From Flavobacterium jumunjinense (GTDB taxonomy: Bacteria > Bacteroidota > Bacteroidia > Flavobacteriales > Flavobacteriaceae), in the NCBI RefSeq assembly GCF_021650975.2, contig NZ_CP091285.1, positions 1,426,001-1,490,000 on the forward strand: a DNA stretch of 64,000 nucleotides, in the 5' to 3' direction. The notes beneath the pieces were generated by a model that saw nothing but the letters and a program-made list of their open reading frames with translations, was not told the DNA's origin and searched no databases. Positions 739-64,000 of the stretch are shown here, one piece after another. The translations under genes were made by a program, and so were the position numbers. Within the stretch, counting starts at the first letter, position 1, and each line of letters starts with the position of its first letter.

Positions 739-765
739 TATTGTAGTATTAAAAGGTATTTTTCT

Positions 766-1794: not shown

Positions 1795-1815
1795 ATAATC
1801 CAAATAGCTATAATT

Positions 1816-2718: not shown

Positions 2719-2781
2719 TAAAATAATAGTTTACTGTTATCAGTTGACAATTTTAAAGTATTGCGGTTATTTTTCTTAATA

Positions 2782-3084
2782 TTAGAAAATCATATTTATT
2801 ACTCCTGAAAAAGTTAAAACTAAAAAAGGAATTGTAATGTATTCATAATCTGTATAATATTTATTTTCATAAATTTTATTCAATATCAAGAGAATTATTA
2901 AAGTAATTATAGAAAATAGGATAGTAAAAATTGGTAGTCCAATCATTAAGTATCCTGCTCCACAAGGTGATTCATTAGCAAATGATTTCATTTTAAATAA
3001 AAAGAAATATAACACATATAAACACCAAATTAAATAAAGTGTAATTGGTATTAAATTAATTCTATTTTCAATTTTTATTCTCAT
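2782..3084 (-). CDS. Small hypothetical membrane protein in the hem operon
   Basis: A 100-residue protein with three predicted membrane segments (about 13-32, 47-70 and 78-98). I recognise no family. Two Cys-bearing loop residues sit near the middle. It lies 25 bp after hemE and 63 bp before hemF on the same strand, so it is probably co-transcribed. Its coding quality is ordinary for this genome, but no homology argument supports a function. Confidence 0.55.
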   Translation of the reverse strand: MRIKIENRINLIPITLYLIWCLYVLYFFLFKMKSFANESPCGAGYLMIGLPIFTILFSIITLIILLILNKIYENKYYTDYEYITIPFLVLTFSGVINMIF

Positions 3085-3109
3085 TTAACTGCTGACTAAC
3101 TGCTGAACA

Positions 3110-4138
3110 CTACTTTCTTTTATACTCTTTAACCGCTTCTACAAATGCTTTTGCATGGTCTACAGGAATGTTTGGTAAAATTCCATGACCAAGGTTCACA
3201 ATATAATTATCTGGACCAAATTCATCAATCATTTCATGAACCATTTTTTTAATTACTGGTATTGGAGATAATAATCGTGAAGGATCAAAATTTCCTTGTA
3301 ACGTTTTCTTTCCACCAGTTAAATATCTTGCATTTTTAGGAGAACAAGTCCAGTCAACACCAATGGCAGCTGCTTTAGATTTTGCCATATCATCAAGAGC
3401 AAACCAACACCCTTTTCCAAAAACGATAACTTTTGTAGAATCAGCAAGAGCTTCAACAATTTGGTTGATGTAGTTCCAAGAAAACTCAGTGTAATCAGTA
3501 GGAGATAACATTCCACCCCATGAGTCAAAAATTTGAACAGCATTTACACCATGTTTCACTTTTTCTTTTAAATATAAAATGGTTGTATCTGTGATTTTTT
3601 GTAATAATAAATGTGCAGCAACAGGATTAGAAAAACAGAATCCTTTTGCTTTGTCGAAACTTTTTGAACCTTTTCCTTCAACAGCATAACAAAAAATTGT
3701 CCAAGGTGAACCTGCAAAACCAATTAAAGGCACTTCATTGTCTAGTTTTTCCCTAGTCATGTCAATAGCATCCATTACATAACCTAAAGTTTCGTTGATA
3801 TCTGGAACGAGTACTTTGTCAACATCGCTTGTTTTACGAATTGGATTGGGTAAAACTGGTCCGATTCCATCTTCTAACTCTACATCAATTCCCATTGCTT
3901 GTGGAATTACTAAAATATCAGAGAATAAAATAGCTGCATCTGGCTTTATAATTCGAATGGGTTGTATTGTAATTTCAGAAGCTAATTCTGGAGTTTTACA
4001 ACGTGTAAAAAAATCATATTTTTCTTTGATTGCCATAAATTCTGGCAAATATCGTCCTGCTTGACGCATCATCCAAACTGGCGGACGTTCTACAGTTTCA
4101 TTATTTAAAGCTCTTAAAAAAAGGTCGTTTTTAATCAT
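3110..4138 (-). CDS. hemE: Uroporphyrinogen decarboxylase
   Basis: HemE removes four acetate carboxyl groups from uroporphyrinogen III to give coproporphyrinogen III. The 342-residue protein carries signature 1, [16 protein letters not shown] (18-33), the presumed catalytic Asp74 in LFSDILV, signature 2 around [20 protein letters not shown] (about 140-160) and the C-terminal GHGILPNIP motif. Length and start (ATG) match the family. It sits 78 bp downstream of hemD and feeds hemF, two genes further on. Confidence 0.97.
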
Positions 4139-4216
4139 CGTTTATAGGTTTTAAAGTTCTAAGTTTTTAATCGTTAAGTTCAAAATAAAACTTAAGTCAG
4201 AAAGACTAAAAAACTA

Positions 4217-4867
4217 TTAATTATAATATTTTATTATTTCTTCAATTACATTTTCAACAGATGGTTGTGTAATTATTTTTATATTTTGTGTTTTGTTCTC
4301 TAATGCTTTTGCGGTGGTTTTACCAATACAAAAACAAACTTCATTCTTTAATTCGTTGTTCTTTAAATAACTTGAAACACCTGATGGACTAAAAAATGCT
4401 ATTCCGTTAAAAGCTGTTTCTAATTTATGAGGTTTTAGATAGGTTTCATAAACAGTTATTTCATTATATACAACATTGTTTTCAATTAAAACTTTTGGTA
4501 AATCGTTTTTTCTAAGGTTACCAGAGAAAAAGGTAAATGTCTTTTCTTTGTGTTTAGTAATTATAAAATTAGCTAGTTGTTCAGCATTATTTCTATAATC
4601 AATCACTTCAAAACCTTTTTTCTCTAAATACTTTTTAGTTTTACTCCCTACACAAATGCATTTTTTTGAAGTAAGTGAATTTGAATTTTTTAAAACACTT
4701 TTTACAGCGTTTTTACTTGTGAAAAGTAGAATTTCATTTAGAATATTTATTTCAAATGGAACTATTTTCGTTTTAATAAAGTTTTTATCTACAACTTGTA
4801 ACCTATTATTCTCAAATGATTTCTTCTGAGTTTTAGTAAGCTTTTTGGTTGCTAAAACAGTTATCAT
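4217..4867 (-). CDS. hemD: Uroporphyrinogen-III synthase
   Basis: HemD closes hydroxymethylbilane with inversion of ring D to form uroporphyrinogen III. The 216-residue protein has the two-lobed alpha/beta pattern of the poorly conserved HemD family: FTSKNAVKSVL near residue 50, a second lobe with FFSPSGVSSYL near 155, and CIGKTTAKAL near 180. Its place between hemC and hemE supports the call. It begins 1 bp after the trkA stop codon, so the potassium genes and hemD are translationally linked. Confidence 0.9.
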   Translation of the reverse strand: MITVLATKKLTKTQKKSFENNRLQVVDKNFIKTKIVPFEINILNEILLFTSKNAVKSVLKNSNSLTSKKCICVGSKTKKYLEKKGFEVIDYRNNAEQLANFIITKHKEKTFTFFSGNLRKNDLPKVLIENNVVYNEITVYETYLKPHKLETAFNGIAFFSPSGVSSYLKNNELKNEVCFCIGKTTAKALENKTQNIKIITQPSVENVIEEIIKYYN

Positions 4868-4868
4868 T

Positions 4869-5585
4869 TTAGATTTTTTTGTTTCTTAAATCAAATTCTT
4901 CTTGACCCATACAATACATTTCTATATCTTTATTATAGCCATAAACTACTAAAATATCATCATCTTCAACCACAGTTTCAGGAGTTGTTCTTCCGATAGT
5001 TTCTCTAGTTATTGTTTTTTTTCCAATTAGATTTCGTTTCTCTTTTTTACGAATAATTGTAATTAAAGTAAGGCTATATTTATCGATAGAGTCTAATTCT
5101 TCAAGTGTTTTGCCGAAAAATTCTTTCTTAGCTTTTACTTCTGAAATAGTATAATTATTATCTAATTGATAATTTTCTAAAGTGGATTTGAAATTGATTT
5201 GTTTTGTTAGTCTATCAGCAGAATCTTGTTCAGGATGAATGATACTATATATTCCCATTGCTTCAAGAACTGTATCGTGTATTGGTGATAAAGCTCTACT
5301 GATAATTTTTACATCACTGAGTTTCTTGATAATTGCAGTTGTAATAATTGCAGCACCTTCATTCTCTCCAATTGCAACAACAACCTTGTCTGCATCTTTT
5401 AAAGGAACAGCATCATAAGCAAGTTCATTAGTTGAATCCATACAAATGGCATGAGAAATTTTATCTTTTACAAGATTTATCTTGTCCATTTGTTTATCGA
5501 TACCTATAACTTCATTTCCTGTTTCGGTTAGACTTAAAGCTAAAGACATACCAAAATTACCAAGTCCAAAAACGATTATTTTCAT
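4869..5585 (-). CDS. Potassium uptake regulatory subunit, TrkA/KtrA family
   Basis: This cytoplasmic RCK protein gates the TrkH/KtrB channel in response to nucleotides. The 238 residues hold one Rossmann RCK-N domain (GLGNFG at 7-12, acidic Asp30 at the end of beta-2) and one RCK-C (TrkA_C) domain at about 140-225, as in KtrA rather than the duplicated E. coli TrkA. It follows trkH by 11 bp. Oddly, the pair is placed between hemC and hemD. Confidence 0.93.
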   Translation of the reverse strand: MKIIVFGLGNFGMSLALSLTETGNEVIGIDKQMDKINLVKDKISHAICMDSTNELAYDAVPLKDADKVVVAIGENEGAAIITTAIIKKLSDVKIISRALSPIHDTVLEAMGIYSIIHPEQDSADRLTKQINFKSTLENYQLDNNYTISEVKAKKEFFGKTLEELDSIDKYSLTLITIIRKKEKRNLIGKKTITRETIGRTTPETVVEDDDILVVYGYNKDIEMYCMGQEEFDLRNKKI

Positions 5586-5596
5586 TTAAAACTTAT

Positions 5597-7339
5597 TTAG
5601 TTAATCAATATATTTTCTTTTGGATACTCATAAAACTGATGATTCAATTGACGTAATAAGCCAATCATCAAGTTGAGCATTCCTATTCTTCCTATAAACA
5701 TTACGGCCATAATTACATATTTACTAGGCTCAGACAAAGTCGAAGTGAAATTCAAACTTAACCCAACTGTACTATATGCAGAAAAACATTCAAAAACCAC
5801 GGTTAATAAAGGTGTGTCTTTTGGTTCTAATATGAGTAGCGCCATTATAGAAATTCCAATTACGATTAATGAAATACATAAAATCGCAAAAGCCCTAGAT
5901 GTAGATTCGCTACTTATTCTTCTTCCGAAGATTTGAATTTTGTTTCTCCCCCTTGCTACAGCATAAATATTTAATGTTGCTAATGCAAAGGTACTTGTTT
6001 TTACTCCACCACCAGTAGAAGCAGGAGAAGCACCAATCCACATTAAGAAAATAATGAACAACAAGGATGGAACGGTAAATTTAGTGAAGTCTACTGTATT
6101 GAATCCAGCTGTTCTTGGAGTTACAGAATTAAAAGCAGCATTTGTGATTTTTCCAAATGCGGTTTTATGTTCTAATAATGTGTTATTGAATTCTGAAATA
6201 AACAAAAACACCCATCCAACAAATAATAAAATAATAGTAGTATAGATTACTATTTTAGTATTAATTTTAATTACTGGTACTTGTTTATGTATTAATTTTT
6301 TATCAAATATTTCTAATATATAGGTTTTTAAATATTTATAGAAATTAAAAATGATATTATGTCCTAATCCTCCAAATATGATTAAAATTATGATTATCCA
6401 TTGAAAGAAATAATGAAAACGAATAGATTCATCATATAAACCATTTGAAAAAATTGAAAATCCAGCATTACAGAATGCAGAGATAGAATGGAAGACAGAA
6501 AAGAAAAATTTATTGTTTATAGAGTTGTTGTTCAATATGGAAGAATAAATAAAAAGTGCTCCAATTATTTCTACAGCAACAGTAAAAATTACCACATTTA
6601 GTGCTGCTCTAAACACATCTTTTAATCCTTCTGTAGCAATAAAATCTTTGGTGTTCAATCCTTCTTTAAATGAAGAACTTCCTCTAAAAAAGAAAGCAAA
6701 GAATGAAGTGAAGGTTAGAATTCCAATACCTCCTAATTGTATAAGTACTAATATTATTGATTGCCCAATAACAGTAAAATCTTTACCAGTATCTACTACT
6801 GCTAAACCAGTTACACAAACAGCACTTGTAGAAGTGAAGAGTGCATTTGTAAAGCTAATTCCATTTGTTGTTGCACTTGGAAGCATTAATAAGAATCCTC
6901 CAGATAACGCAAGTATTAAAAAACTACCAACAAAAACAATGGCAGGATTAAAGTAAATATCATAGACATGTCTAACTAGAACTAGTAATCTTAAAAGGAA
7001 ATAGACGATTAAACCTCCTTCTAGAAAGGCTTTTATTTCTTGAAGAATATAATGATAACTAAAGTCAGTGTTAATTAACGCAATAATTCCAGACGTAATA
7101 AGTAAAATGGAGATGATGACCATGTTTACCAAGGCGACTTTCTTATTGCTTTTATATTTATAGATGAAAAATTTAAAAGTATTAAATACCAGTAATAGAA
7201 AAGTTAATATTAATAGACCAACAACGTGTGGTGTATTGAAATTTTCTCCAAAGTCATAGCCAAAATCAAATACAATGAAAAGTAATACAATGATATCAAA
7301 AAAGCGGTAAATATAATTGAGTAATGATTCTCTTTCCAT
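5597..7339 (-). CDS. Potassium uptake membrane subunit, TrkH/KtrB family
   Basis: A 580-residue integral membrane protein, longer than minimal KtrB because of an extra N-terminal membrane region (about residues 1-130). It has the four-fold P-loop architecture of Trk/Ktr/HKT transporters. SAVCVTGL, FCNAGFSIF, TPRTAGFNT and YSTVGLSLN are the four selectivity-filter loops, each with its Gly. It takes up K+ with the TrkA subunit encoded 11 bp downstream. It starts 13 bp after the hemC stop, inside the heme operon. Confidence 0.94.
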   Translation of the reverse strand: MERESLLNYIYRFFDIIVLLFIVFDFGYDFGENFNTPHVVGLLILTFLLLVFNTFKFFIYKYKSNKKVALVNMVIISILLITSGIIALINTDFSYHYILQEIKAFLEGGLIVYFLLRLLVLVRHVYDIYFNPAIVFVGSFLILALSGGFLLMLPSATTNGISFTNALFTSTSAVCVTGLAVVDTGKDFTVIGQSIILVLIQLGGIGILTFTSFFAFFFRGSSSFKEGLNTKDFIATEGLKDVFRAALNVVIFTVAVEIIGALFIYSSILNNNSINNKFFFSVFHSISAFCNAGFSIFSNGLYDESIRFHYFFQWIIIILIIFGGLGHNIIFNFYKYLKTYILEIFDKKLIHKQVPVIKINTKIVIYTTIILLFVGWVFLFISEFNNTLLEHKTAFGKITNAAFNSVTPRTAGFNTVDFTKFTVPSLLFIIFLMWIGASPASTGGGVKTSTFALATLNIYAVARGRNKIQIFGRRISSESTSRAFAILCISLIVIGISIMALLILEPKDTPLLTVVFECFSAYSTVGLSLNFTSTLSEPSKYVIMAVMFIGRIGMLNLMIGLLRQLNHQFYEYPKENILIN

Positions 7340-7352
7340 TATTTAGAGTGAT

Positions 7353-8273
7353 TTATTTCACTTTTAAGGTTTCTCTAAGTTTTTCCATAAGGAAACTTCC
7401 TCCATTATTTAAAATCTCAGTTGCGCAGTTTCTTCCAAAAAAAGTATAATCCTCAAAATTACAACTTTTTTTGATTTCATAGTTTTCTTTTCCGTCTAAA
7501 GAATGAAGTACACCTTCAAAATAAATCTTTTCACCCTCAAATTTTGCAAGCGCACCAATTGGAGCTGTACAACCACCTTCTAAAGTTTTTAAAAATTGTC
7601 TTTCAATGAATGTACAAATTTCAGTTTCTTTATGATTTAATTGTGAAAGCGCTTCTTTTGTATATGTATCATTTTCCATAGCAACAACTAACATTGCTCC
7701 TTGTGCAGGTGCAGGAACCATCCAATCTAAATTCATATAGGTGTCTGGTTTTAAATTGATACGTTCTAAGCCAGCGGCAGCAAAAATAGCTCCATCCCAA
7801 GTATTATCTTTCAATTTTTGCATGCGTGTATTTACATTACCACGTAAATCTTCAACAATATGGGAAGGATATTTGTTAAGCCATTGTGCTTTTCGTCTTA
7901 AACTACCTGATGCGATTGTTCCATTTGTGTTTAAAAAGTCTAAACTTCCTTTATGTACAAGAATATCTAGTGTGTTCGCTCTTTTTAAAACTGCTGCTTG
8001 GACTATTCCAATTGGTAATGCAGTTGGAACATCTTTCATCGAATGTACTGCAATATCAATTTCACCCTTTAGCATTGCAATGTCTAAAGTTTTTGTAAAA
8101 ATTCCAGTAATCCCTAATTCATATAAGGGTTTGTCTAAGATGATATCTCCTGTTGATTTTACAGCAACAATCTCTGTTGAATAACCTAAATCGTTTAACT
8201 TTTTTTGAACAGTATGTGCTTGCCAAAGAGCTAACTCACTATCTCTTGTTCCTATGCGTATTGTTTTTTTCAA
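7353..8273 (-). CDS. hemC: Hydroxymethylbilane synthase (porphobilinogen deaminase)
   Basis: HemC polymerises four porphobilinogens into hydroxymethylbilane. The 306-residue protein has the N-terminal RIGTRDSELALWQA motif, the catalytic Asp81 in HSMKDVP, SLRRKAQ near 124 and the dipyrromethane-cofactor Cys235 in LEGGCTAPIGA. The start is a TTG at 8273. No ATG lies in frame near it, and this start gives the standard MKKTIRIGTR beginning. It follows hemA by 10 bp. Confidence 0.96.
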   Translation of the reverse strand: MKKTIRIGTRDSELALWQAHTVQKKLNDLGYSTEIVAVKSTGDIILDKPLYELGITGIFTKTLDIAMLKGEIDIAVHSMKDVPTALPIGIVQAAVLKRANTLDILVHKGSLDFLNTNGTIASGSLRRKAQWLNKYPSHIVEDLRGNVNTRMQKLKDNTWDGAIFAAAGLERINLKPDTYMNLDWMVPAPAQGAMLVVAMENDTYTKEALSQLNHKETEICTFIERQFLKTLEGGCTAPIGALAKFEGEKIYFEGVLHSLDGKENYEIKKSCNFEDYTFFGRNCATEILNNGGSFLMEKLRETLKVK

Positions 8274-8283
8274 AAGGGGGATT

Positions 8284-9531
8284 TTAATTATTTAAACGAA
8301 ATACTTTTTCGATCCATTCAATACTTTCATCAACCATTGTATCTTCGTCTTTTAGATGATTTGCAAAATGAGTTGTGATTTTTTGTATAATTCGATTGCT
8401 TATTATCTCAGCTTGTTCTTCATTAAAATTATCCAATTTTTTACGTTGATAATTTAATTCAGATTGCTTTATTAAAGCTAATTTTTCTTTTAGAGAATGT
8501 ATTGTTGGTGCAAATTTTCTCGCTTTTGTCCAGCTTAAAAATTCTTCAATGATATCTTCAATGATTGCCTCAGCTGCAGGAATGTGTAGTTTTCTTTTTT
8601 CTATTGTCTCGTCTGTAACTTGAGAAAGGTAATCTAAATGTACAAGTGTTACTCCTTCAATATCTGAAACGTTACTGTTAACGTTTTTTGGTATAGATAA
8701 ATCTAAAATTAATAGCGGTTTTTTTAGTTTTAAAACTTCAGAATCAATTGTAGGGTTTTGTGCTCCTGTAGCAACAATTAGTACATCTGCTTTTTGAATT
8801 TCTAATTGTAAGTTAGCATAGTCTTTAACAAGCAGATTAAATTTACCAGCAATTTTTTCTGCTTTTTCTTTTGTTCTGTTAATTAGAACGATATGGTCAT
8901 TTTTAGTATGTTTTACTAAGTTTTCACACGTGTTTCTACCTATTTTTCCTGTACCAAATAGTAAGATATTTTTATTGCCAATATCTTCTACATTATTCAT
9001 AATATATTGTACAGAAGCAAAAGAAACAGAAGTCGCACCTGAACTGATTTGGGTTTCATTTTTTACTCTTTTGCTAGCTTGAATAACTGCATTTACTAGT
9101 CGTTCTTTATAAGAGTTTGCAAGGCCAAGTTTTTTACTCGCTACAAAACCAGATTTTATTTGAGAGATAATTTCAAAATCTCCTAAAATCTGACTATCTA
9201 AACCCGTTCCTACTCTAAAAAGATGATTTATAGCTTCTTTATTTTTGTAAACATAGGCTACTTTTTGAAAATCTTCAACAGTACCATTACTGTGCTCACA
9301 AAGTAATTTTATTAATTGAAATGGGTGTTGCGAAAAACCATATATCTCGGTTCTATTACAAGTTGAAATTAGAATTAAAGATTCTATACCATCTTCTTTT
9401 GCTTGAAGGAGTATGTCTTCTTTACTTTTTTCATCTAAACTAAATTTTCCTCTCATTTCAGCATCTGCTTTTTTATAGCTTAAGCCAATGGCATAAAAAG
9501 TAGTGTGCTTCAATCCTGTAGTATTATCCAT
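8284..9531 (-). CDS. hemA: Glutamyl-tRNA reductase
   Basis: HemA reduces glutamyl-tRNA(Glu) to glutamate-1-semialdehyde with NADPH, the first committed step of C5-pathway heme synthesis. The 415-residue protein has catalytic Cys58 in STCNRTEIY, the conserved VGTGLDSQILGD segment, the NADPH-binding LLFGTGKIGRN loop and a C-terminal dimerisation helix region. It is the first gene of the minus-strand hem operon, with a TAnnTTTG promoter 27 bp upstream. HemL (the next enzyme) and HemB are not in this window. Confidence 0.97.
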   Translation of the reverse strand: MDNTTGLKHTTFYAIGLSYKKADAEMRGKFSLDEKSKEDILLQAKEDGIESLILISTCNRTEIYGFSQHPFQLIKLLCEHSNGTVEDFQKVAYVYKNKEAINHLFRVGTGLDSQILGDFEIISQIKSGFVASKKLGLANSYKERLVNAVIQASKRVKNETQISSGATSVSFASVQYIMNNVEDIGNKNILLFGTGKIGRNTCENLVKHTKNDHIVLINRTKEKAEKIAGKFNLLVKDYANLQLEIQKADVLIVATGAQNPTIDSEVLKLKKPLLILDLSIPKNVNSNVSDIEGVTLVHLDYLSQVTDETIEKRKLHIPAAEAIIEDIIEEFLSWTKARKFAPTIHSLKEKLALIKQSELNYQRKKLDNFNEEQAEIISNRIIQKITTHFANHLKDEDTMVDESIEWIEKVFRLNN

Positions 9532-9557
9532 AAATTGTACTTTGCTTAAAGTAAGAA

Positions 9558-9565
9558 CAAAATTA
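9558..9565 (-). promoter_or_regulatory. Predicted -7 element of the hemA operon
   Basis: TAATTTTG on the minus strand matches the Bacteroidota TAnnTTTG element exactly and would give a leader of about 20 nt before the hemA ATG. No good TTTG -33 box is visible at the expected distance. Confidence 0.6.
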
Positions 9566-9659
9566 CTGTAGTCGCTTTTATAAAAGTAACGCTCAAAGGA
9601 CTTTTTGTGTCGATTGCAGAATTTTTATAAAAATAATGTTCAGGTTTTATATTTTCACC

Positions 9660-9667
9660 TATTTTTG
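9660..9667 (+). promoter_or_regulatory. Predicted -7 element of the AraC-type regulator gene
   Basis: TATTTTTG matches TAnnTTTG. It lies 36 bp upstream of the ATG chosen at 9704 and about 100 bp from the divergent hemA promoter. Confidence 0.55.
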
Positions 9668-9703
9668 TAGTAGAATTAGCTGTTGGGAATTTATTTATTT
9701 ATA

Positions 9704-10633
9704 ATGAATCTAAATAAATTCAAAATGACAAGTTCAAAATCACTCTTAAAAAATAACGCTATGAGTTCTTTTGAAGAAATAAAAATAGAGCAAGATTTCA
9801 CATTACTTCGTTTTCAAAATGATTCGGAAATAATGGAACGAATTGAAAAACAAGTGAAAACAGGTTTGATTCAATTTCATTTTAACCTAAAAGGTAAAGC
9901 AAAATTTATTTTTAATCAGAGAAGTTATGCATTAGATTTAAACGAAGAGAAATCGTTACTTCTTTATAACCCTCAAAAAGAATTGCCGTTGCATTTAGAA
10001 GTGAGTCCGAAAACATGGGTTATTTCTGTTTTAATTTCAATAAAGAAATTTCATGCCTTGTTTTCAAATGAAGCAGAAGTAATACCTTTTCTAAGTCAAG
10101 AAAATTTAGACAAAAAATATTATGGAGAAGAAGATATAAGTCCTTCAATGGCAATTGTTCTCAATCAAATATTTCATTATAATCAAAATTCATCTATTAA
10201 AAATCTCTATCTAAAAGGAAAAGGATATGAATTAATGAGTTTGTATTTTAATCAAAATGAAGATCCAAATGCAGAACATTGTCCATTCTTAATTGATGAG
10301 GAAAATGTACTTAAGATAAAAAAAGCTAAAGAAATAATTATTGAAAACATGGCTGAGCCACCTGGCTTGCAAGAATTGGCAGATAGAGTAGGGTTAACAC
10401 TGAAGAAATTGAAAGTAGGTTTTAAACAAATTTATGGAGATAGTGTTTATAGCTTTTTGTTTGATTATAAAATGGAATACGCCCGAAAAATGCTAGATTC
10501 TGGTTCTTATAATGTTAATGAAGTAGGTTTAAAAGTAGGGTATAGTACTTCGAGTCATTTTATAGCGGCCTTCAAGAAAAAATTTGGAACAACACCAAAA
10601 AAATATTTAATGAATTTAAATTTGAATGTTTAG
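9704..10633 (+). CDS. AraC-family transcriptional regulator beside the heme operon
   Basis: A 309-residue protein. The C-terminal 100 residues (about 210-305) hold the two helix-turn-helix motifs of AraC/XylS proteins, ending with VGLKVGYSTSSHFIAAFKKKFGTTPKKY. The N-terminal two-thirds is a divergent sensor domain that I do not recognise. The ATG at 9704 is preferred over an upstream non-ATG start. Its position between divergent hemA and co-directional hemH suggests control of heme genes, possibly by iron or heme. That is inference from context only. Confidence 0.85.
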   Translation: MNLNKFKMTSSKSLLKNNAMSSFEEIKIEQDFTLLRFQNDSEIMERIEKQVKTGLIQFHFNLKGKAKFIFNQRSYALDLNEEKSLLLYNPQKELPLHLEVSPKTWVISVLISIKKFHALFSNEAEVIPFLSQENLDKKYYGEEDISPSMAIVLNQIFHYNQNSSIKNLYLKGKGYELMSLYFNQNEDPNAEHCPFLIDEENVLKIKKAKEIIIENMAEPPGLQELADRVGLTLKKLKVGFKQIYGDSVYSFLFDYKMEYARKMLDSGSYNVNEVGLKVGYSTSSHFIAAFKKKFGTTPKKYLMNLNLNV

Positions 10634-10762
10634 TATTAACGTACAATATCAAATTATTGAATACTACAATAGATAAAAAAAAGTTAAGGAGTCTTAGTAA
10701 GCTATTAAGATTAATTACTTTTATCGAACTTTTATAAAGAAGAAAATAAAATAGAAATAATA

Positions 10763-11797
10763 ATGAAAGGAGTATTATTAGTAAACTTAGGTTCACCAGA
10801 AAGTCCAACACCTAAAGATGTAAAGCCTTATTTAGATGAGTTCTTAATGGATAAATATGTAATTGACGTTCCGTTTTTATTACGAGCTTTATTAGTAAGA
10901 GGAATTATTCTTCAAACAAGACCTAAAAAATCTGCAGCTGCATACAAAAAAATCTGGTGGGAAGAAGGTTCTCCGTTAATAGTTCTTTCAAAAAGGATGA
11001 AAGAAAAAGTAGAGAAAGATGTTAGCGTTCCTGTTTCTTTAGCCATGCGTTATGGAAATCCAAGTATAGAATTTGGATTACAAGAATTGAGTGATAAAGG
11101 AGTAACAGAAGTATTATTGTTTCCACTATATCCGCAACATGCAATGGCTTCAACGGTAACAATTTTAGTTTTGGCGGAAGAATTGCGTAAGAAGAAGTTT
11201 CCACACATGAGTTTTACGATTGTTCCTGCATTTTATAATCAAAAAGATTATGTTAGGGATTTATCAAACTCCATTAAAAAACATTTAGAAGGCTTTGATT
11301 ATGATCATTTATTATTCTCATATCATGGAATTCCAGAACGTCATATAAGAAAAACAGACGTAACAAAAGGTCATTGTAAAATTGACGGAAGTTGTTGTAA
11401 TATACCTTCTCCAGCTCACGAATTTTGTTATCGTCACCAATGTTATGAAACGACAAAACAAGTAGTTGAATTTTTAGGAATTGAAGAAGGAAAATACAGT
11501 CAAACTTTTCAATCACGTTTAGCAGGAGATAAATGGTTAACGCCATATACTGATGTTGAGATTAATAAAATGCCAGAAAAAGGGATTAAGAAGTTAGCAG
11601 TGGTTACACCAGCATTCGTTGCAGATTGTTTAGAAACATTGGAAGAAATAGCTATGGAAGCAAATCATGAATTTAAAGCTCATGGTGGAGAAGAGTTTAG
11701 AGCAATTCCTTGTTTAAATGATGATGATGATTGGTGTAAAACGTTGAGCCGTTGGATTGATCAATGGGCTTTTCAAAATGAAGAACAAAAAGCATAA
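10763..11797 (+). CDS. hemH: Ferrochelatase
   Basis: HemH inserts Fe(II) into protoporphyrin IX to make protoheme. The 344-residue protein begins MKGVLLVNLGSPESP, has the catalytic His188 in FSYHGIPERH, and the later QSRLAGDKWLTPYT segment conserved around the active site. Cys residues cluster at about 205-225 (CKIDGSCCNIP, FCYRHQC). The stop codon overlaps the start of the MATE gene (TAATG). It is fed by HemF and HemJ encoded on either side. Confidence 0.97.
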   Translation: MKGVLLVNLGSPESPTPKDVKPYLDEFLMDKYVIDVPFLLRALLVRGIILQTRPKKSAAAYKKIWWEEGSPLIVLSKRMKEKVEKDVSVPVSLAMRYGNPSIEFGLQELSDKGVTEVLLFPLYPQHAMASTVTILVLAEELRKKKFPHMSFTIVPAFYNQKDYVRDLSNSIKKHLEGFDYDHLLFSYHGIPERHIRKTDVTKGHCKIDGSCCNIPSPAHEFCYRHQCYETTKQVVEFLGIEEGKYSQTFQSRLAGDKWLTPYTDVEINKMPEKGIKKLAVVTPAFVADCLETLEEIAMEANHEFKAHGGEEFRAIPCLNDDDDWCKTLSRWIDQWAFQNEEQKA

Positions 11798-13131
11798 TGG
11801 CAGTTTCTTCTAAAGAATTAGGATCATTAGATATAAAAAAATTATTGATTAAACAATCGGTACCCGCTTCTATAGGTATTTTGTTTATGTCAATTAACAT
11901 ACTAATAGACACTATCTTTGTAGGACAGTGGATTGGTTCATTGGCAATAGCAGCTGTTTCAGTGGTATTGCCAATTACTTTTTTAATATCCTCCTTAGGA
12001 ATGGCCTTAGGTATTGGAGGAAGTTCAATTATTTCAAGAGCATTAGGAGCGGAAGACAAAGAAAAAGCACTCTTAACGTTTGGAAATCAGTTAATGATGA
12101 CGATTTTACTTGCTGTACTATCTGTTGTTGTTGGTTTGTTTTACTCGGATGAGGTTTTGTTGCTCTTTGGAGCAAACGGAGCAATTAAAGAACCCGCTAA
12201 GGAATTTTTTATGCCTGTTTTATATGGAGTGCCTTTTTTAGCACTTAGTATGATGGGTAATACAGTAATTAGAGCAGAAGGGAAGCCAAAGTTTGCCATG
12301 ATGGCTATGATTATTCCTGCTTTTAGTAATATTATATTAGATATTATTTTTATAAAATTTCTAAATTTAGGTATGTTTGGAGCAGCTCTAGCTACTTCAA
12401 TTTCTTATTTTATGTGCTTTGCTTTCATTCTTTGGTTCTTTATTTATAGAAGTGAATTGAAACCGCAGTTGAAGCATTTTTTATTGCAACAAAAAGTAGT
12501 GTCTGAAATTTCTTCTTTAGGTTTTGTAACCTTTGCAAGACAAGGAGTTGTCGCAATTTTATCAATAATCTTAAATCATACCTTATTTACCTATGGTGGA
12601 GAAGATTCTGTTGCAATCTATGGAATTATAAGTAGAATGCTAATGTTTGCATTGTTTCCAATTCTAGGAGTAACACAAGGGTTTTTGCCAATTGCAGGTT
12701 ATAATTATGGTGCAAAATTATATGCACGTGTAAATGAGTCTATCACAACATCAATAAAGTGGGCTGCGTTTTTAGCAACAATAATTTTTGTAGTTATCTT
12801 AGTATTTGCGAGCTCTATCGTAACGATATTTACTACAGACGCAAAAATAATTGCTGAAACACCAAATGCATTACGAATTATATTTGCAGCATCTCCAATT
12901 ATTGCCATACAACTAATCGGTGCGGCCTATTTTCAAGCAGCAGGAAAAGCAATTCCAGCATTACTATTAACACTTACTAAACAAGGGTTTTTCTTAATTC
13001 CTTTAGTACTTGTTTTACCAAATTATTATGGTATTTTTGGAGTATGGATTTCTTTTCCAATTGCAGATATTTTGGCAACATTAGTAACAGCATTCTTTTT
13101 AAGAAGGGAAATGAAGCGGGAATTAGTTTAA
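11797..13131 (+). CDS. MATE family efflux transporter
   Basis: This 444-residue protein has twelve predicted membrane segments in two homologous halves and belongs to the MATE (MatE) family of cation-driven exporters. GMALGIGGSSIISRALGA near residue 75 and QGFLPIAGYNYGAKLY near 300 are the equivalent conserved loops of the two halves. Substrate unknown. Translational coupling to hemH (1-bp overlap) raises the possibility of exporting porphyrin or related toxic compounds, but this is speculation. Confidence 0.93.
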   Translation: MAVSSKELGSLDIKKLLIKQSVPASIGILFMSINILIDTIFVGQWIGSLAIAAVSVVLPITFLISSLGMALGIGGSSIISRALGAEDKEKALLTFGNQLMMTILLAVLSVVVGLFYSDEVLLLFGANGAIKEPAKEFFMPVLYGVPFLALSMMGNTVIRAEGKPKFAMMAMIIPAFSNIILDIIFIKFLNLGMFGAALATSISYFMCFAFILWFFIYRSELKPQLKHFLLQQKVVSEISSLGFVTFARQGVVAILSIILNHTLFTYGGEDSVAIYGIISRMLMFALFPILGVTQGFLPIAGYNYGAKLYARVNESITTSIKWAAFLATIIFVVILVFASSIVTIFTTDAKIIAETPNALRIIFAASPIIAIQLIGAAYFQAAGKAIPALLLTLTKQGFFLIPLVLVLPNYYGIFGVWISFPIADILATLVTAFFLRREMKRELV

Positions 13132-16679: not shown

Positions 16680-18392
16680 TTAGATTGAATATGAAACTAC
16701 ACGTTCTGTATTTTCAGAAAAATTTTCATTAAACACTGTAGTTACAAAATTCCATTTCGATTCTACAGTACTAGAAGTAAAATGAACCGTTAAATAGCCT
16801 CTGTCGGAAGCATTTAAATAATTAAGATCATCAATTAGTACTTGCATTGCCGTTTCAAAACCACCAATGGCAGAAGCATCAAGTCCTAAATATTTTTCTA
16901 AACCAGGAGAAGTCACAGAGGAAGTCGCAAATTCTCTTCCTTTTCCATTGGCATTACTATCATTTAAGTTACTATACCAAGCATTGTGTGTGTCTCCAGC
17001 AAGACAGATGATTTTTTTATTTCCAAAACTATTGTAAAGTATTTCTCTTTCTACAGGATAACCATCCCAAGCGTCTAAATTATAAGGTAGCACTGTTGTT
17101 ATTCTTCCAATTTCTGCATTAGTAAGTGTTGGGTCTCCATTAGTATAGCGTAATTTTATACTAACAAGTTCTGTTAGTGTTTGTTGAAACTGTTGTAATG
17201 CTGCTGCAGAACCTCCTAATACAGAACCTAGACCAATTAATAATTCAGCAGGAATCATCATTTTTCCCATTAATACTTGTTGCCCTAAAACTTGCCAAGG
17301 AGCACTACTTCCTGTTACTTGTGATATTAGCCAATTTCTTTGTGTTGTTCCAAGTAGTGTTCGGTTTGGATTTAATAAATCGGTTTGAAAACTTGGAATG
17401 TCAAAGTTTCCAGAATTATCAAAATAATTAGAGTATTCTAATTGTTTATCACGTCCAATTACACGTGTGTCTAGCATTACTAAATTAACAAGGTTTCCAA
17501 TATTGAAATTTCTATAGATCAAATTAATGTCATTTGTTTTCATAGGTAGAAATTCACTATAAGCTTTAATTGCATCTGCTTTTCTTGCTTCAAAACTTCC
17601 TTCGTTTGGCTGATGATTTTCTGCACCATCTTTATAGGTGTCATTGGCTATTTCATGATCATCCCAAACACAAATGAATGGTTTCTTTTGATGCGCTAAT
17701 TGTAAGTTTTTATCCGTACGATATTGTTTATAACGTGCTCTATAATCATTTAATGTTATAATTTCATTTGCTGGAGAATGCTTTCTGTTTAATGCATTTG
17801 TATATTCATTAGTACCATATTCTTCTTGTGCATATTCATAAATGTAATCGCCAAGATGTACAATAATATCAGCATTAGAATTAGCCATTGCCTGGTAAAC
17901 ATTAAATAAACCAGCAGGATAATTTGCACAAGAACAAACCGCTAATGTAACTGCATTTGTAGCAACAGGTAGTGTAATTGTTTCACCAATTACAGAAACA
18001 CTTCTGTCTTCTTGATTAAAGAAACGATAATATAGTTTTTTATCGGCTTCTAAATTCTGAAGTTCAATGGCAATTGTATAATCTCGTGAGTTATCTGTAG
18101 TTACTCCTCCACTTCTAAAAACGGTTTCAAATTTAGCATCATAAGCTACTTGCCAAAGTATTTTAACACTAGGTTTTCCAGTGTTATATCGTGTCCAAAT
18201 AATTATTTGGTTATGAGTTGGGTCAAAACTAGCTACTCCATGTGCAAAATTATCATTTGAATAATCATCTGGCACACCAAAAACACTATCATCATCTGAG
18301 CAACTAATAAAGTTGGGAGCTAAAAGAATTCCTCCAGTTGTTAAAATAGAATTGATTAAAAATCGCCTTCTTGACAAAGAATTTTGACTCAT
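16680..18392 (-). CDS. PhoD-like alkaline phosphatase/phosphodiesterase, Tat-exported
   Basis: This 570-residue protein has a twin-arginine signal (SRRRFLINS at residues 7-15) followed by a hydrophobic stretch and a Cys in ISCSDDD that may be lipidated. PhoD domains follow: an N-terminal Fn3-like domain (about 40-140), then the metallophosphatase core with VHLGDYIYEY, WDDHEIANDTYKDG and LAGDTHNAW, which provide the Fe/Ca ligands. It releases phosphate from extracytoplasmic phosphate esters. Transcribed alone, with no Pho regulatory site that I could recognise. Confidence 0.92.
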   Translation of the reverse strand: MSQNSLSRRRFLINSILTTGGILLAPNFISCSDDDSVFGVPDDYSNDNFAHGVASFDPTHNQIIIWTRYNTGKPSVKILWQVAYDAKFETVFRSGGVTTDNSRDYTIAIELQNLEADKKLYYRFFNQEDRSVSVIGETITLPVATNAVTLAVCSCANYPAGLFNVYQAMANSNADIIVHLGDYIYEYAQEEYGTNEYTNALNRKHSPANEIITLNDYRARYKQYRTDKNLQLAHQKKPFICVWDDHEIANDTYKDGAENHQPNEGSFEARKADAIKAYSEFLPMKTNDINLIYRNFNIGNLVNLVMLDTRVIGRDKQLEYSNYFDNSGNFDIPSFQTDLLNPNRTLLGTTQRNWLISQVTGSSAPWQVLGQQVLMGKMMIPAELLIGLGSVLGGSAAALQQFQQTLTELVSIKLRYTNGDPTLTNAEIGRITTVLPYNLDAWDGYPVEREILYNSFGNKKIICLAGDTHNAWYSNLNDSNANGKGREFATSSVTSPGLEKYLGLDASAIGGFETAMQVLIDDLNYLNASDRGYLTVHFTSSTVESKWNFVTTVFNENFSENTERVVSYSI

Positions 18393-60416: not shown

Positions 60417-60434
60417 ACTACACTTTAGGGTAAA
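60417..60434. promoter_or_regulatory. LuxR-type box 1, upstream of the E1-like gene
   Basis: ACTACACTTTAGGGTAAA shares 15 of 18 bases with the box at 62041 and is an imperfect palindrome. Its centre lies 37.5 bp upstream of the last base of the -7 element, roughly position -43, where class II LuxR activators bind. Confidence 0.6.
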
Positions 60435-60455
60435 GCACTATGTTTGCATTAGCGC

Positions 60456-60463
60456 TATTTTTG
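60456..60463 (+). promoter_or_regulatory. Predicted -7 element of the E1-like gene
   Basis: TATTTTTG matches TAnnTTTG, 16 bp upstream of the ATG. No -33 TTTG is at the normal distance, which fits activator dependence. Confidence 0.6.
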
Positions 60464-60479
60464 TATTAAAATTAATGAA

Positions 60480-61232
60480 ATGGAAACACGATATAGTAGA
60501 AACAGAATATACCTTACAGAAGAGGAACAAGCTTTAATTAAGGATTACCCTATATTGCTTGGAGGTAGCGGAATTGGTAGTGTAATTGCAGAATGTGCGC
60601 TACGTTTTGGTTTTGAGAATATAACTATTATAGATGGTGATCAGGTTGAATTAACCAACTTGAATAGACAGAACTATACGGAAGAAGATATAGCAGTAGA
60701 TAAAACAGAGGCACTTTTCAAGAGATTAAAACAGATAAACAAGAATGCGAAGATTACCTGCCATAATTGTTTTCTAACGACAGCTAATGTTGAAGAATAC
60801 ATTACAGGTCATAAAATCGCTATTAATGCATTAGATTTCTCGTCTGATGTTCCATTAGTGTTCGACAAAATTTGTCAAGAACAAAACATACCCGTTTTAC
60901 ATCCTTACAATTTAGGATGGGGAGGTTTAGTAACCGTAATTACACCAGATAGTTTATCATTAAGTTCTTTAGCAAAACCCAATGAAAAGTTTAATGAGGT
61001 TAATATGGTAGAATATGCTTCGAGTTATTCCAGATTTTGGGGAAATCCACAAAAATGGTTAGAAGATATTATTGAGGAGTATAAAAACGAAAAAGAAGTT
61101 TTACCGCCACCACAACTTTCTATTGCTTCTTGGATAGTTGCTGCAATGTGTACCCATTTACTTTTTAATATTGCTACAGAAAAAGAATTTAAAATTTTTC
61201 CAGAGTTTTATCTACAAACAATAAACAATTAA
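60480..61232 (+). CDS. ThiF/HesA/MoeB-like E1 enzyme (adenylyltransferase)
   Basis: A 250-residue E1-superfamily protein. LLGGSGIGS (26-34) is the ATP loop, Asp52-x-Asp54 with NLNRQ (60-64) and Lys75 (VDKTEA) complete the nucleotide site, and ALDFSSD (107-113) gives the Mg-binding Asp109. There is no CxxC zinc pair, unlike MoeB and ThiF. Such enzymes adenylate the C-terminus of a small protein or peptide, or a carboxylate metabolite, before thiolation or amidation. No small partner gene is seen here. It meets the LuxR gene tail-to-tail with overlapping stop codons. Confidence 0.88.
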   Translation: METRYSRNRIYLTEEEQALIKDYPILLGGSGIGSVIAECALRFGFENITIIDGDQVELTNLNRQNYTEEDIAVDKTEALFKRLKQINKNAKITCHNCFLTTANVEEYITGHKIAINALDFSSDVPLVFDKICQEQNIPVLHPYNLGWGGLVTVITPDSLSLSSLAKPNEKFNEVNMVEYASSYSRFWGNPQKWLEDIIEEYKNEKEVLPPPQLSIASWIVAAMCTHLLFNIATEKEFKIFPEFYLQTINN

Positions 61233-61988
61233 ATGAGTTTATTGTTTGTAGCATAAGCTACGGCTTCAGAAATATTATTTACTCCTAATTTATCAAACAG
61301 TTTTTTTCTGTGAAACTTAACAGTATCTGGTGAAACAAAAATAGCTTCAGCAATTTCATTAATAGTAAATCCTCTAATTGAAAAGCTTAATACTTCTTTT
61401 TCTCTTTCTGATAATTCTATTTTCCCTTCCGACTTCCAAAAATCACCTTCAAGGTCATATCTAAAAATTTTATTATCTCCTTTTTTAAAGATTCTTATAT
61501 TTCCAGAATCATGTTCGTTAGATAACGAAACAATGCAAATTGCTTTCCAGATTTTACCATCGTTTGTTAGGAATAAAGGAGTTAACTTTTGATTAATTAA
61601 GATCGTTTTTTCCTTCTTGATTTTTTAAATGGAAATCATAAGAAATGGTGTGAAATTTACGATCTTCTATTGGTATTTTCTCATAAAATTCAAAACCGAC
61701 TTCATTTACTTTTAAAAGTAAATCAAGATCTTTTTTAATTACATATTTAAAATAAAATAAATATCCCATTTCTGTAACTTCATCTCCAGTATGTCCACAA
61801 AGAAATAGTGGATTGTCAGAAACGTAATCAAATCCTTTTTTTTGATAATCAATAACATAAATACTATTATAAGTAGTTCTTGATAACGCTTTTATAGGTT
61901 CTAAATAGTTTTCTGTTTGTTTCTGTTCGTCATCAGAAATGTTATTAACTGTATTTTTAAATGAAAAAAAACCGTCTATATCTTCCAT
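61229..61988 (-). pseudogene. PAS-LuxR transcriptional regulator interrupted by a frameshift
   Basis: Residues 1-131 (61593-61988) form the PAS-like sensor part; the LuxR helix-turn-helix (LSEREKEVLSFSIRGFTINE, then VSPDTVKFHRKKLFDKLGVNN) continues in a different frame down to the TAA at 61229. The frames join at a run of six A on the minus strand (61606-61611). With five A the protein reads EGKTILINQKLTP and gives one 252-residue regulator of a type common in Bacteroidota. It could be a real mutation, a sequencing error or phase switching. Confidence 0.82.
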
Positions 61989-62005
61989 GTTTATTTATTT
62001 GTACC

Positions 62006-62013
62006 CAAATATA
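62006..62013 (-). promoter_or_regulatory. Predicted -7 element of the PAS-LuxR gene
   Basis: TATATTTG on the minus strand matches TAnnTTTG, 17 bp before the ATG at 61988. The LuxR-type box at 62041-62058 is centred 43.5 bp upstream, so autoregulation is possible. Confidence 0.55.
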
Positions 62014-62040
62014 AGTTTTTTTTAGAATAAAATCTAGTTT

Positions 62041-62058
62041 ACTACACTTAAGGGTAGT
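62041..62058. promoter_or_regulatory. LuxR-type box 2, between the regulator and acyltransferase genes
   Basis: ACTACACTTAAGGGTAGT matches its own reverse complement at 16 of 18 positions, the best palindrome of the set. It lies between divergent promoters. From its centre to the last base of the weak -7 element TACTATTTTG at 62081-62090 is 40.5 bp. Confidence 0.65.
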
Positions 62059-62143
62059 TTTTATGTAACATGTTCATTACTACTATTTTGGGTAATGGAT
62101 ACCTTGAGTAGGTTGAATAGCTTTGAAAGTAAATCAAGGCATT

Positions 62144-62830
62144 ATGATACTTATAGAAAACCACTTAGAAAGATTAAGAACAAACGAGATAAAAAACTTA
62201 TCTGAATTTGTAGTTAGAGAAAATTTTAAACATCATACAAATAATATACTTCCTACAGGTTATGAAAATGATGTAATGGAAATTTACTTAGAAGAGATGA
62301 ATTACATTAATAATTCTGAAATTTTTGTTACTAGAGATTCTTCAGGAAATATCTTAGGTTCTATTCGTGTTTTAAAATGGGACTATGTAAGCACACTTCC
62401 TTTACAGAAGATTTTTGATATTAATCCTTTATCAGTAATTGGAGATATTCAATTAAATGACATTTGGCATATTGGTCGATTTGCAATTAATAAAGAGGTG
62501 AGTGATGTCAATCTATTTAAAAAATTAATGGTTTGTGCTATTTCTCCAATTTGTCAGTATAAAGGGAATATCGCTTTTGCAGAATGCGATAGTAAGTTAT
62601 TACGTGTATTAAGACTATTAGGAATTAAAGCAAATGTAATAGGAGAGTCAATAGACTATTTAGGCTCGGAAACAATTCCTGTTAGTATGTCTTATGACGG
62701 TTTGATTGAGTTTTATAATGCTAATAAAGGATTAGTATCTAATGAAGTACTAAATCAGTCACCTGAAAAAACGGAACTACCTGAAAGTGTAGTTTTTAGT
62801 ACTCTTAGTTACAACTACTCTTTGGTGTAG
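62144..62830 (+). CDS. LuxI/FeeM-like GNAT-fold acyltransferase (candidate signal synthase)
   Basis: A 228-residue protein. After a helical N-terminus (1-55), IFVTRDSSGNILGSIRVL (about 60-77) is the beta-hairpin entry of a GNAT fold, WHIGRFAINKE (108-118) the acyl-CoA or acyl-ACP strand, and LLRVLRLLGIKANVIGESIDYLG with FYNAN the LuxI/FeeM-like C-terminal pattern. LuxI proteins make acyl-homoserine lactones and FeeM N-acyl amino acids. I cannot tell the substrate. The ATG at 62144 is preferred over a TTG seven codons upstream. LuxR-type boxes precede it and overlap its end. Confidence 0.75.
   Translation: MILIENHLERLRTNEIKNLSEFVVRENFKHHTNNILPTGYENDVMEIYLEEMNYINNSEIFVTRDSSGNILGSIRVLKWDYVSTLPLQKIFDINPLSVIGDIQLNDIWHIGRFAINKEVSDVNLFKKLMVCAISPICQYKGNIAFAECDSKLLRVLRLLGIKANVIGESIDYLGSETIPVSMSYDGLIEFYNANKGLVSNEVLNQSPEKTELPESVVFSTLSYNYSLV
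62776..62793. promoter_or_regulatory. LuxR-type box 3, within the 3' end of the acyltransferase gene
   Basis: ACTACCTGAAAGTGTAGT has exact ACTAC/GTAGT arms with an 8-bp centre and lies 38 bp upstream of box 4. It may act as a distal site for the receptor promoter. Confidence 0.5.
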
Positions 62831-62831
62831 T
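62814..62831. promoter_or_regulatory. LuxR-type box 4, upstream of the outer-membrane receptor gene
   Basis: ACTACTCTTTGGTGTAGT has exact ACTAC/GTAGT arms. Its centre is 37.5 bp upstream of the last base of the receptor -7 element, the same spacing as box 1. It overlaps the acyltransferase stop codon. Confidence 0.62.
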
Positions 62832-62852
62832 AAAGAAGGGAGAATTGTTGAT

Positions 62853-62860
62853 TAGTTTTG
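62853..62860 (+). promoter_or_regulatory. Predicted -7 element of the outer-membrane receptor gene
   Basis: TAGTTTTG matches TAnnTTTG, 25 bp upstream of the ATG at 62886. A half-box GTGTAGT (62863-62869) follows directly, at the next 38-bp step from box 4. Confidence 0.65.
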
Positions 62861-62885
62861 AAGTGTAGTTAAAAAATAAGAAAAG

Positions 62886-64000
62886 ATGAAAAATATAATT
62901 TTCAGTTTAATAGTCCTTTTTTCAAGTTCAATAGTTTTATCACAAACTATATATTCTGGTAAAGTAGTTGACATTAAAAATGAGCCAATAGCTTTTGCAA
63001 ATGTTGTGATTTATAAAGCAAATGATAAATCAATTGAGAAAGGAGATATTACAGACGAGGATGGTAATTTTAAAATTGAAATAAACGCAAAAGAGTCTCA
63101 TTATTTAGAAATTAGTTTTCTGGGCTTTAAAACAAAGAGGTTAGACTTGACAGAAAACAATTTAGGTAAAATTACTTTAGAAGAAGATGTTAATAGTTTA
63201 AAAGAAGTTGTCGTTAAGGGTAAAAAGCAAAACCTAATAAGAAAGAACGACCGATTAATATTTAATATTGAGAATACAATTGTTCAGGAATTAGGATCGG
63301 CTGTTGATGTACTAAGAGTTACTCCAAACATAGTAATGAGAGATGATAAGCTCACAATGTTAGGAAAAAACTTTGTAAGGGTTATGGTTAATGGTAAAAT
63401 GATGCCGTTTCAAGGAGATGATTTAAGAAATTATTTGGCAACTATTAATAGTAACGATATTAAAAGTATAGAAGTAATAACTGTTCCTCCATCTGAGTTT
63501 GAAGCGGAAGGTAATGGAGGTGTAATAAATATAATTCTGAAGCAGCAAAAAAATGATTTTTGGAGTGTAAATGCAGGTCTCTCTAGTATACAACGTACCG
63601 AATTTTCATATGATAGAAATATGTCCTTTAACTATAAGAAAAAGAACACCTATTTAACGGCAAGTGTTTCTAACGGTAAATTCATAAAGAATAATGTTTT
63701 TAAAAACAATAACTTTTATGAAGATGAAACTTGGGATGGTAATGGAGATAGTAAATACGATAATGATTATTTAAACTATAGATTATCAGTCACACAAAAC
63801 ATAACTAAGAATTGGGAAATTGGAGCGAGTTATTCTGGATCAAATTCAGACACAGATAATCGAACATATAATCTAGATAAGATTTATGATTTATCGGACA
63901 ATCTAAAATATAAGATGGATTCAGATGGTTTATCTGTGAGTGATTCCAAAATACATACATTAAATTTTTATAACCTAATTAAGTTAGATAGTCTAGGAAA
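62886..64000 (+). CDS. Outer-membrane beta-barrel receptor, TonB-dependent type (3' end outside window)
   Basis: The frame is open to the end of the window: 371 residues are visible. They are a signal peptide (1-20, before Gln), a carboxypeptidase-like domain (about 21-105: FANVVIYKANDKS, ISFLGFKTKRLDL), a plug-like domain with VLRVTPNIVMRD and IEVITVPPSEFEAEGNGGVINIILK (about 140-220), then barrel strands. This is the layout of Bacteroidota outer-membrane beta-barrel family 3 proteins. It is under the same LuxR-type boxes as the E1 and acyltransferase genes, so it may take up or release the product. Confidence 0.85.
   Translation, partial: MKNIIFSLIVLFSSSIVLSQTIYSGKVVDIKNEPIAFANVVIYKANDKSIEKGDITDEDGNFKIEINAKESHYLEISFLGFKTKRLDLTENNLGKITLEEDVNSLKEVVVKGKKQNLIRKNDRLIFNIENTIVQELGSAVDVLRVTPNIVMRDDKLTMLGKNFVRVMVNGKMMPFQGDDLRNYLATINSNDIKSIEVITVPPSEFEAEGNGGVINIILKQQKNDFWSVNAGLSSIQRTEFSYDRNMSFNYKKKNTYLTASVSNGKFIKNNVFKNNNFYEDETWDGNGDSKYDNDYLNYRLSVTQNITKNWEIGASYSGSNSDTDNRTYNLDKIYDLSDNLKYKMDSDGLSVSDSKIHTLNFYNLIKLDSLG

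Follow-up and report, generated by a model that had tools for sequence, protein, structure and literature searches.

A probable N-acyl-cyclolysine signalling cassette with paired operator boxes at the head of a class I lanthipeptide operon in Flavobacterium jumunjinense

We analysed a 64,000-nucleotide stretch of Flavobacterium jumunjinense DNA, hereafter the window (RefSeq assembly GCF_021650975.2, contig NZ_CP091285.1, positions 1,426,001 to 1,490,000 of the forward strand; G000:C1:1426001-1490000), which ends in four genes that very probably include an N-acyl-cyclolysine (acl) quorum-sensing circuit controlling a lanthipeptide operon. The first gene, on the plus strand at 60480-61232, encodes an E1/ThiF-family adenylyltransferase (PF00899, 3e-30). 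It is followed on the minus strand by a PAS/LuxR-type regulator gene (61232-61988) that is frameshifted in the assembly, with an N-terminal open reading frame at 61593-61988 and a GerE helix-turn-helix piece at 61232-61621. A FeeM/LuxI-like GNAT gene then occupies 62144-62830 of the plus strand (stop codon at 62828-62830), and a plus-strand gene for an outer-membrane beta-barrel receptor runs from 62886 through the window end at 64000 and on to position 7265 of L008, our coordinates for the locus beyond the window (window position equals L008 position plus 57999). The receptor has 792 residues in L008 and matches PF14905 at 263 bits. An initial annotation, made from the letters of the window alone, had named all four genes; the E1, GNAT and receptor assignments held up, and the minus-strand regulator gene is also present, albeit as two frameshifted fragments rather than a single open frame.

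The profile of the E1 family matched PDB entries 9egb and 9egc at 455.8 bits. Identity to 9egb is 72% for the window E1 and 97% for that of Tenacibaculum larymnensis (L048). Judged by sequence, the window E1 is in the same family as the ThiF-type protein of 9egb, 9egc and 9egd, from which it differs by ordinary divergence; 30 other E1 proteins in our alignment are 57-79% identical to it. The window GNAT scored 17.2-17.3 bits with FeeM (PF21926), below the curated cutoff of 27. Among 35 members of the GNAT family, 29 matched FeeM at E ≤ 1 (best, 1.8e-5) and two matched Acetyltransf_1, which sets the family nearer to the former than to ordinary acetyltransferases, the opposite of one outcome that the initial annotation had named as a refutation. 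Autoind_synth (PF00765) was matched by one of the 35, at E 0.01, and not by the window GNAT at E ≤ 1; the GNAT profile matched no PDB chain at E ≤ 1. We propose that the E1 is a putative lactam-forming enzyme of the acl system, and the GNAT a putative lysine N-acyltransferase. Elsewhere in the F. jumunjinense genome, there are one more LuxR-type gene (103 bits) and two ThiF-type genes (58-62 bits), and no second GNAT was found there.

Each plus-strand promoter carries an 18-bp dyad, ACTAC-N8-GTAGT, which we scored out of its 10 fixed bases. The E1 promoter has a single box (60417-60434, plus strand; 8/10), with a -7 element, TATTTTTG, at 60456-60463. The GNAT promoter has two plus-strand boxes, the first at 62041-62058 (10/10) and the second 38 bp after it, at 62079-62096 (9/10), with the -7 element TAGCTTTG at 62118-62125. 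Because the alternative TTG start at 62123 falls within this element, the ATG at 62144 is the likely start of the GNAT gene. The promoter of the downstream genes, which we call the cargo, is also built from two plus-strand boxes. Box 1 (62776-62793) lies within the GNAT gene and encodes L-P-E-S-V-V, while box 2 (62814-62831) includes the GNAT stop codon and encodes N-Y-S-L-V-stop, and the -7 element TAGTTTTG follows at 62853-62860. The boxes are thus where the initial annotation had placed them; the features that exceed chance are their placement and pairing, not the frequency of single boxes. In the 4.68-Mb genome, a pair of boxes 38 bp apart (≤3 mismatches) occurs at two places, both at the window locus, and at none for the control.

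The GNAT profile found 140 relatives in genome contigs, and the best 80 of the 140, together with L008, make up the 81 loci compared here. Their hosts belong to the Flavobacteriaceae, Weeksellaceae, Hymenobacteraceae, Spirosomataceae, Reichenbachiellaceae, Saprospiraceae and Marinilabiliaceae, and include Bacteroides fragilis; one locus labelled Zambryskibacteria (L044) is probably misbinned. Upstream of the GNAT gene, 79 of the 81 loci have a LuxR-type gene on the opposite strand, within 1 kb in 78 and at 1.45 kb in L090; the two loci without it are L087, which is cut off, and L088. The E1 gene is found within 10 kb in 68/81 loci; its distance from the LuxR gene is at most 1 kb in 61 of them and 6-8 kb in 7. 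As for the 13 loci with no linked E1, all ten genomes that were searched carry a full-length E1 of the family elsewhere (344-429 bits), L060 is on the same contig as the E1-bearing L050, and the remaining two (L074 and L087) are short or truncated. The GNAT-LuxR sets of L050 and L060, both from Flavobacterium sp. ZT3R18, are ~19.7 kb apart, and the E1 gene stands beside one of them only. A LuxR-type helix-turn-helix is present in 32/32 regulators scanned, and their sensor part is only weakly PAS-like (PAS_3 in 9/32 at E ≤ 1); 31 other LuxR proteins are 42-81% identical to that of L026. The gene set, and the box, recur far beyond the window strain, a check that the initial annotation had set for itself. 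Counting F. jumunjinense itself, the GNAT was present in 13/397 sampled genomes of the family, in G033 at just 25% identity and in the other 12 at 45-100%, and in 12/395 of the phylum, one of these being a short broken match. Two distant GNATs (25-27% identity), L022 from G320 and L021 from G033, one of them with an in-frame stop, possibly represent a second acyltransferase branch.

Across these loci, boxes scoring at least 9/10 gather in three regions. The spacer between the LuxR and GNAT genes (26.2 kb in total) holds 107 and has one or more in 75/79 loci; the GNAT 3' end (18.5 kb) holds 78, in 45/81 loci; and the DNA upstream of E1 (14.9 kb) holds 22, in 21/68 loci. The 1480 kb outside the three regions contain 45, and six control dyads of like composition gave 0-3 boxes per region in the 81 loci. 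When distances of 18-80 bp between boxes of at least 8/10 were collected, 79/102 within the regions were exactly 38 bp, against 2/18 elsewhere. The Bacteroidota -7 element has the consensus TAnnTTTG. Counted from the first base of the last box, this motif begins 39 bp downstream in 50/77 GNAT, 31/45 cargo and 34/41 E1 promoters that have a box. In the classical lux box, a dyad lies upstream of the promoter and the activator bound there touches RNA polymerase; the geometry of box and -7 element found here is what would be expected of an activator working in that way. In the F. jumunjinense genome, a box followed by a -7 element was found with 0 or 1 mismatch at the cargo and GNAT promoters only, and with 2 mismatches at the E1 promoter and eight other places. 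At ≤3 mismatches, the same genome yielded no excess of candidate regulon members over background (64/60 places, and 76/63 with the control).

A lanthipeptide locus begins with these four genes. The receptor gene is the first of a class I lanthipeptide operon that runs past the window end in L008, where it is followed by eight small precursor open reading frames with GG leaders (7360-9322), LanC (9375), the luciferase-like enzyme LLM (10502), LanB (11449), a C39-peptidase ABC exporter (14510) and a LanC-like protein (16722-17903). The profiles typical of class I lanthipeptide enzymes scored well (PF04738, 312 bits; PF14028, 195 bits; PF05147, 87.6 bits), and four of the eight precursors were scanned, all of which reach the cutoff of 22 for NF038153, the class I lanthipeptide leader. 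The precursor at L008 7628 scored 50.4 bits, and that at L008 9170 scored 22.4 and does better with TIGR04149, a family of radical SAM-modified, ribosomally synthesized and post-translationally modified peptides. With LanB, LanC and a class I leader all present, the window cargo has the predicted make-up of a class I lanthipeptide cluster.

Other loci have other cargo. Using class names taken from representatives rather than from each locus, we counted 25 NHLP-type cargos, 16 with NusG plus nonribosomal peptide synthetase (NRPS) genes, 12 class I lanthipeptide, 6 ABC-type, 5 C39-ABC, and 17 that were other or cut off. The NHLP-type representative has an NHLP leader at 49.9 bits, just below the cutoff of 50.9, as well as OEP and HlyD; the NRPS representative has NusG and Condensation/AMP-binding domains; and the B. 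fragilis cargo, grouped under "other", has a radical SAM protein (PF04055). A receptor homologue occurs in 26/81 loci, including all 12 with lanthipeptide cargo, so the receptor tracks particular cargos and not the cassette, and the earlier suggestion that it takes up or exports the signal found no support. In five loci (L064, at 11205-12512, L028, L029, L046 and L099), a protein of ~435 residues adjoins the C39 ABC exporter; that of L064 has no Pfam or NCBIfam match, and is a possible peptide-modifying enzyme. Separately, ~130 bp preceding the first cargo genes are common (71%) to otherwise different cargos (L008 7264-7389 and L025 10729-10856) and include a small TTCCTGGCCAGGAA-like inverted repeat. 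Rfam gave no match over L008 2300-9500 up to E 0.5, and the L008 copy of the hairpin upstream of the precursors folds no better than shuffles (z 0.56).

The cargo box pair lies wholly within the GNAT reading frame in 24/81 loci, always in the same register; in 11/81 it lies partly or wholly beyond the GNAT stop, and 46/81 have no scoring pair. Since counting third positions in loci chosen by their box score is partly circular, we repeated the count with tails chosen by peptide alone, and the same 24 loci were recovered. In these tails, Leu is encoded by CTA in 23/23 cases (70/531 Leu codons in the rest of the same GNAT genes), Asn by AAC in 21/21 (154/440), Tyr by TAC in 24/24 (58/203) and the last Val by GTG in 24/24 (35/340). 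The stop codon is TAG in 21/24 tail loci and in 9/57 other GNAT entries, one of the 57 being cut off. The codons are thus what the boxes demand, and the best reading of the conserved tail (L-P-x-S-V-V ... N-Y-x-L-V-stop) is that it is a coded operator rather than a part of the enzyme. The constant register of the in-frame boxes may simply be inherited.

One reading, which we would put at even chances, sees the acl cassette as a stationary regulatory dock: the cargo operator lies within the 3' end of the acyltransferase gene, and whole biosynthetic clusters would be swapped there while the circuit and its chromosomal site stay in place. The window's two upstream neighbours are shared by four Flavobacterium relatives (Flavobacterium sp. 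J27, F. profundi, NRK F7 and 9AF), and all four also have the gene that follows the window cargo (L008 18837-19541; methionyl-tRNA synthetase-like by eye). This gene is ~9.2 kb past the GNAT gene in J27, 13.7 kb in F. profundi, 13.6 kb in NRK F7 and 14.0 kb in F. jumunjinense, and sits on a different contig from the GNAT gene in 9AF. An EamA-like gene (by eye) after the F. jumunjinense cargo is in none of the four. At this one chromosomal site, F. jumunjinense, F. profundi and NRK F7 carry lanthipeptide cargo, and J27 an ABC-type cargo that is also found in Lacinutrix (L023). The DNA of J27 and F. profundi is 80.6% alike over locus positions 473-10690 (~10.2 kb; L025 10690/L026 10690), a stretch that closes with the final base of the GNAT stop codon, so that one more base would complete box 2; between J27 and F. 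jumunjinense, similarity ends at the last base of box 2. Beyond the J27/F. profundi breakpoint comes cargo of a different class, and then the same downstream gene in both.

To place this case in a wider sample, we compared pairs among the 35 loci whose GNAT 3' end carries an operator, excluding pairs of class "other", and recorded where similarity ends relative to the end of box 2. The 164 different-class pairs fell below -60 in 88 cases, at -5 to +10 in 56, at +11 to +60 in 14, at +61 to +300 in 5 and beyond in 1. The corresponding figures for the 80 same-class pairs were 24, 10, 2, 11 and 30, with a further 3 at -60 to -6. This distribution fits a boundary at the end of box 2 without proving exchange; J27 is the strong case. 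The GNAT tree speaks against exchange as the rule. Cargo class changed 23 times over all groups, compared with 48.1 in shuffles and a least possible 5, and the changes in NHLP (4 vs. 21.7), NRPS (5 vs. 14.9) and lanthipeptide (5 vs. 11.4) cargos were likewise few. Cargo classes are thus clustered on the tree, and cassette and cargo mostly travel together. The starred branches force 2-5 changes each in the NHLP, NRPS and lanthipeptide classes, so exchange or re-gain happened too, and C39 cargo shows 5 changes and no clustering. Taken together, the pairwise and tree evidence is mixed.

The regulator of the window strain is in two fragments: the first open reading frame stops at 61593, and the GerE helix-turn-helix resumes in another frame. 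Alignment with six intact relatives traced the frameshift to a single base within a homopolymer near 61.6 kb. Four near-identical regulators (P0132-P0135) are intact at 252 residues, and P0133 agrees with both window fragments at every position of the compared stretches (127 and 120 residues). Given these intact copies, the break in the window may be a recent loss or a sequencing or assembly error; phase variation may also account for it.

How the circuit might work follows the gene set. The GNAT would acylate an amino acid (reportedly lysine in the published system), and the E1-like enzyme would adenylate the carboxylate, on which the side-chain amine would then close a lactam. The PAS-LuxR protein would sense the acyl-cyclolysine product and bind the 18-bp dyads, which are paired at 38 bp before the GNAT gene and the cargo and single before the E1 gene, the last dyad being just upstream of the -7 element. 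We infer that it would thereby switch on both synthesis genes, E1 and GNAT (autoinduction in the case of the GNAT gene), together with the receptor-headed lanthipeptide operon. The core of the regulon that had first been suggested, with an E1 that activates a carboxylate, a GNAT that acylates and a LuxR protein that senses, fits the data and the acl system as reported, leaving aside the part given to the receptor.

Several observations weigh against this account. A lone box with ≤1 mismatch is not rare, being found at 139 places in the genome compared with 229 for the backward control; at the strict threshold, E1 boxes are present in just 21/68 loci, and that of the window reaches 8/10. The B. 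fragilis locus (L102) has the three genes and no box of at least 9/10 anywhere; the short loci L074 and L087 have no such box either. The regulator is also split in L086, and with its own regulator gene frameshifted, the circuit may be silent in the window strain, unless the frameshift is an assembly error. Finally, the proposed gene roles and chemistry draw on the features reported for the acl system and on one sentence of a review (PMC13419125), and we connect the 9egb/9egc entries with the work of Linares-Otoya et al. (2025) by inference.

Three other explanations were considered. The boxes could belong to another regulator, with the LuxR gene a mere neighbour: binding of LuxR to the boxes is a prediction, and L102 has a LuxR gene and no good box. 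Set against this are the boxes in the LuxR-GNAT spacer of 75/79 loci and the absence of the box pair from the rest of the F. jumunjinense genome at ≤3 mismatches, and we give the idea little credence. Slightly less credible is that the E1 and GNAT tailor the lanthipeptide (e.g., by acylating it) rather than make a signal. They do adjoin the lanthipeptide operon and have boxes like those found there, but the same cassette precedes NHLP-type, NusG plus NRPS, ABC-type and C39 cargo (25, 16, 6 and 5 of the 81 loci), the E1 can be unlinked from it, and wherever the GNAT 3' end carries a box (45/81 loci), the cargo has its own promoter.

The explanation to which we assign the least weight is a true LuxI/LuxR pair that makes N-acyl-homoserine lactones (AHLs), with the E1 gene serving some other purpose. 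The LuxI/FeeM kind of GNAT, the LuxR-type helix-turn-helix of every regulator scanned and a dyad just upstream of the -7 element, as in the lux box, would all suit such a pair. It is hard to reconcile with the solitary Autoind_synth match among the 35 GNATs or with the retention of the E1 even where it is unlinked, and a cyclolysine signal has been reported in Bacteroidota (review PMC13419125). We therefore retain the acl circuit as the favoured reading, and regard the locus as a real, well-supported signalling locus of a kind already described. The regulator break, the promoter code, the operator-coded tail and the exchange of cargo deserve closer attention; what may be new is the control DNA and the exchangeable cargo, although we make no claim that the box pair, coded tail or cargo exchange are unpublished. 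A recently reported quorum-sensing system was here recovered from sequence alone. Its promoter code, in which dyads are paired at 38 bp and the -7 element begins 39 bp from the start of the last one, predicts signal-controlled clusters, and a synthetic signal might serve to switch on the lanthipeptide to which this locus points.

The locus can be compared with known systems. With the LuxI/LuxR AHL quorum sensing of Proteobacteria, it shares divergent synthase and regulator genes, a dyad upstream of the promoter and a geometry that fits autoinduction; it differs in the extra E1 enzyme, in a GNAT nearer to FeeM than to Autoind_synth, and in its weakly PAS-like sensor. The class I lanthipeptides of Bacteroidetes have leaders with an LxLxKx5L motif and a GG end, and the name LanJC is proposed for the luciferase-like enzyme when it reduces dehydrated residues (PMC7268733). 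The window cargo resembles these clusters in its NF038153 precursors, C39 peptidase-ABC, LanB, LanC and luciferase-like enzyme, and differs from them by its eight tandem precursors and two LanC-like proteins. Our literature search found no mention of 9EGB and, among the papers searched, no other account of a system such as this one; the main text of PMC10352776 has no LuxR, ThiF, FeeM, GNAT or acyltransferase.

The initial annotation knew of no described system with this gene set in Bacteroidota, a statement that found no support, as a review passage (PMC13419125) credits Linares-Otoya et al. (Nature 2025, doi 10.1038/s41586-025-09418-9) with the discovery of the N-acyl-cyclolysine family in that phylum, to which the host of the window also belongs. 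The E1 of the window, by family membership, would supply the ATP-dependent cyclase, and the GNAT, which weakly matches FeeM, is the candidate lysine acyltransferase. In the 2025 Nature paper of Linares-Otoya and colleagues, lysine is reportedly acylated and then cyclised in an ATP-dependent step, with a dedicated transcription factor, and the system is said to control co-localised operons for secreted molecules. The gene content here is comparable, with a candidate acyltransferase gene, a putative cyclising enzyme and a candidate regulator gene (frameshifted here and intact in P0132-P0135) beside a lanthipeptide operon that has its own C39-ABC exporter, and with candidate boxes and -7 elements, as autoinduction would call for, in front of the synthesis genes. 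No tested feature contradicts the acl system; the locus differs in its frameshifted regulator gene and in having a class I lanthipeptide cluster as its cargo.

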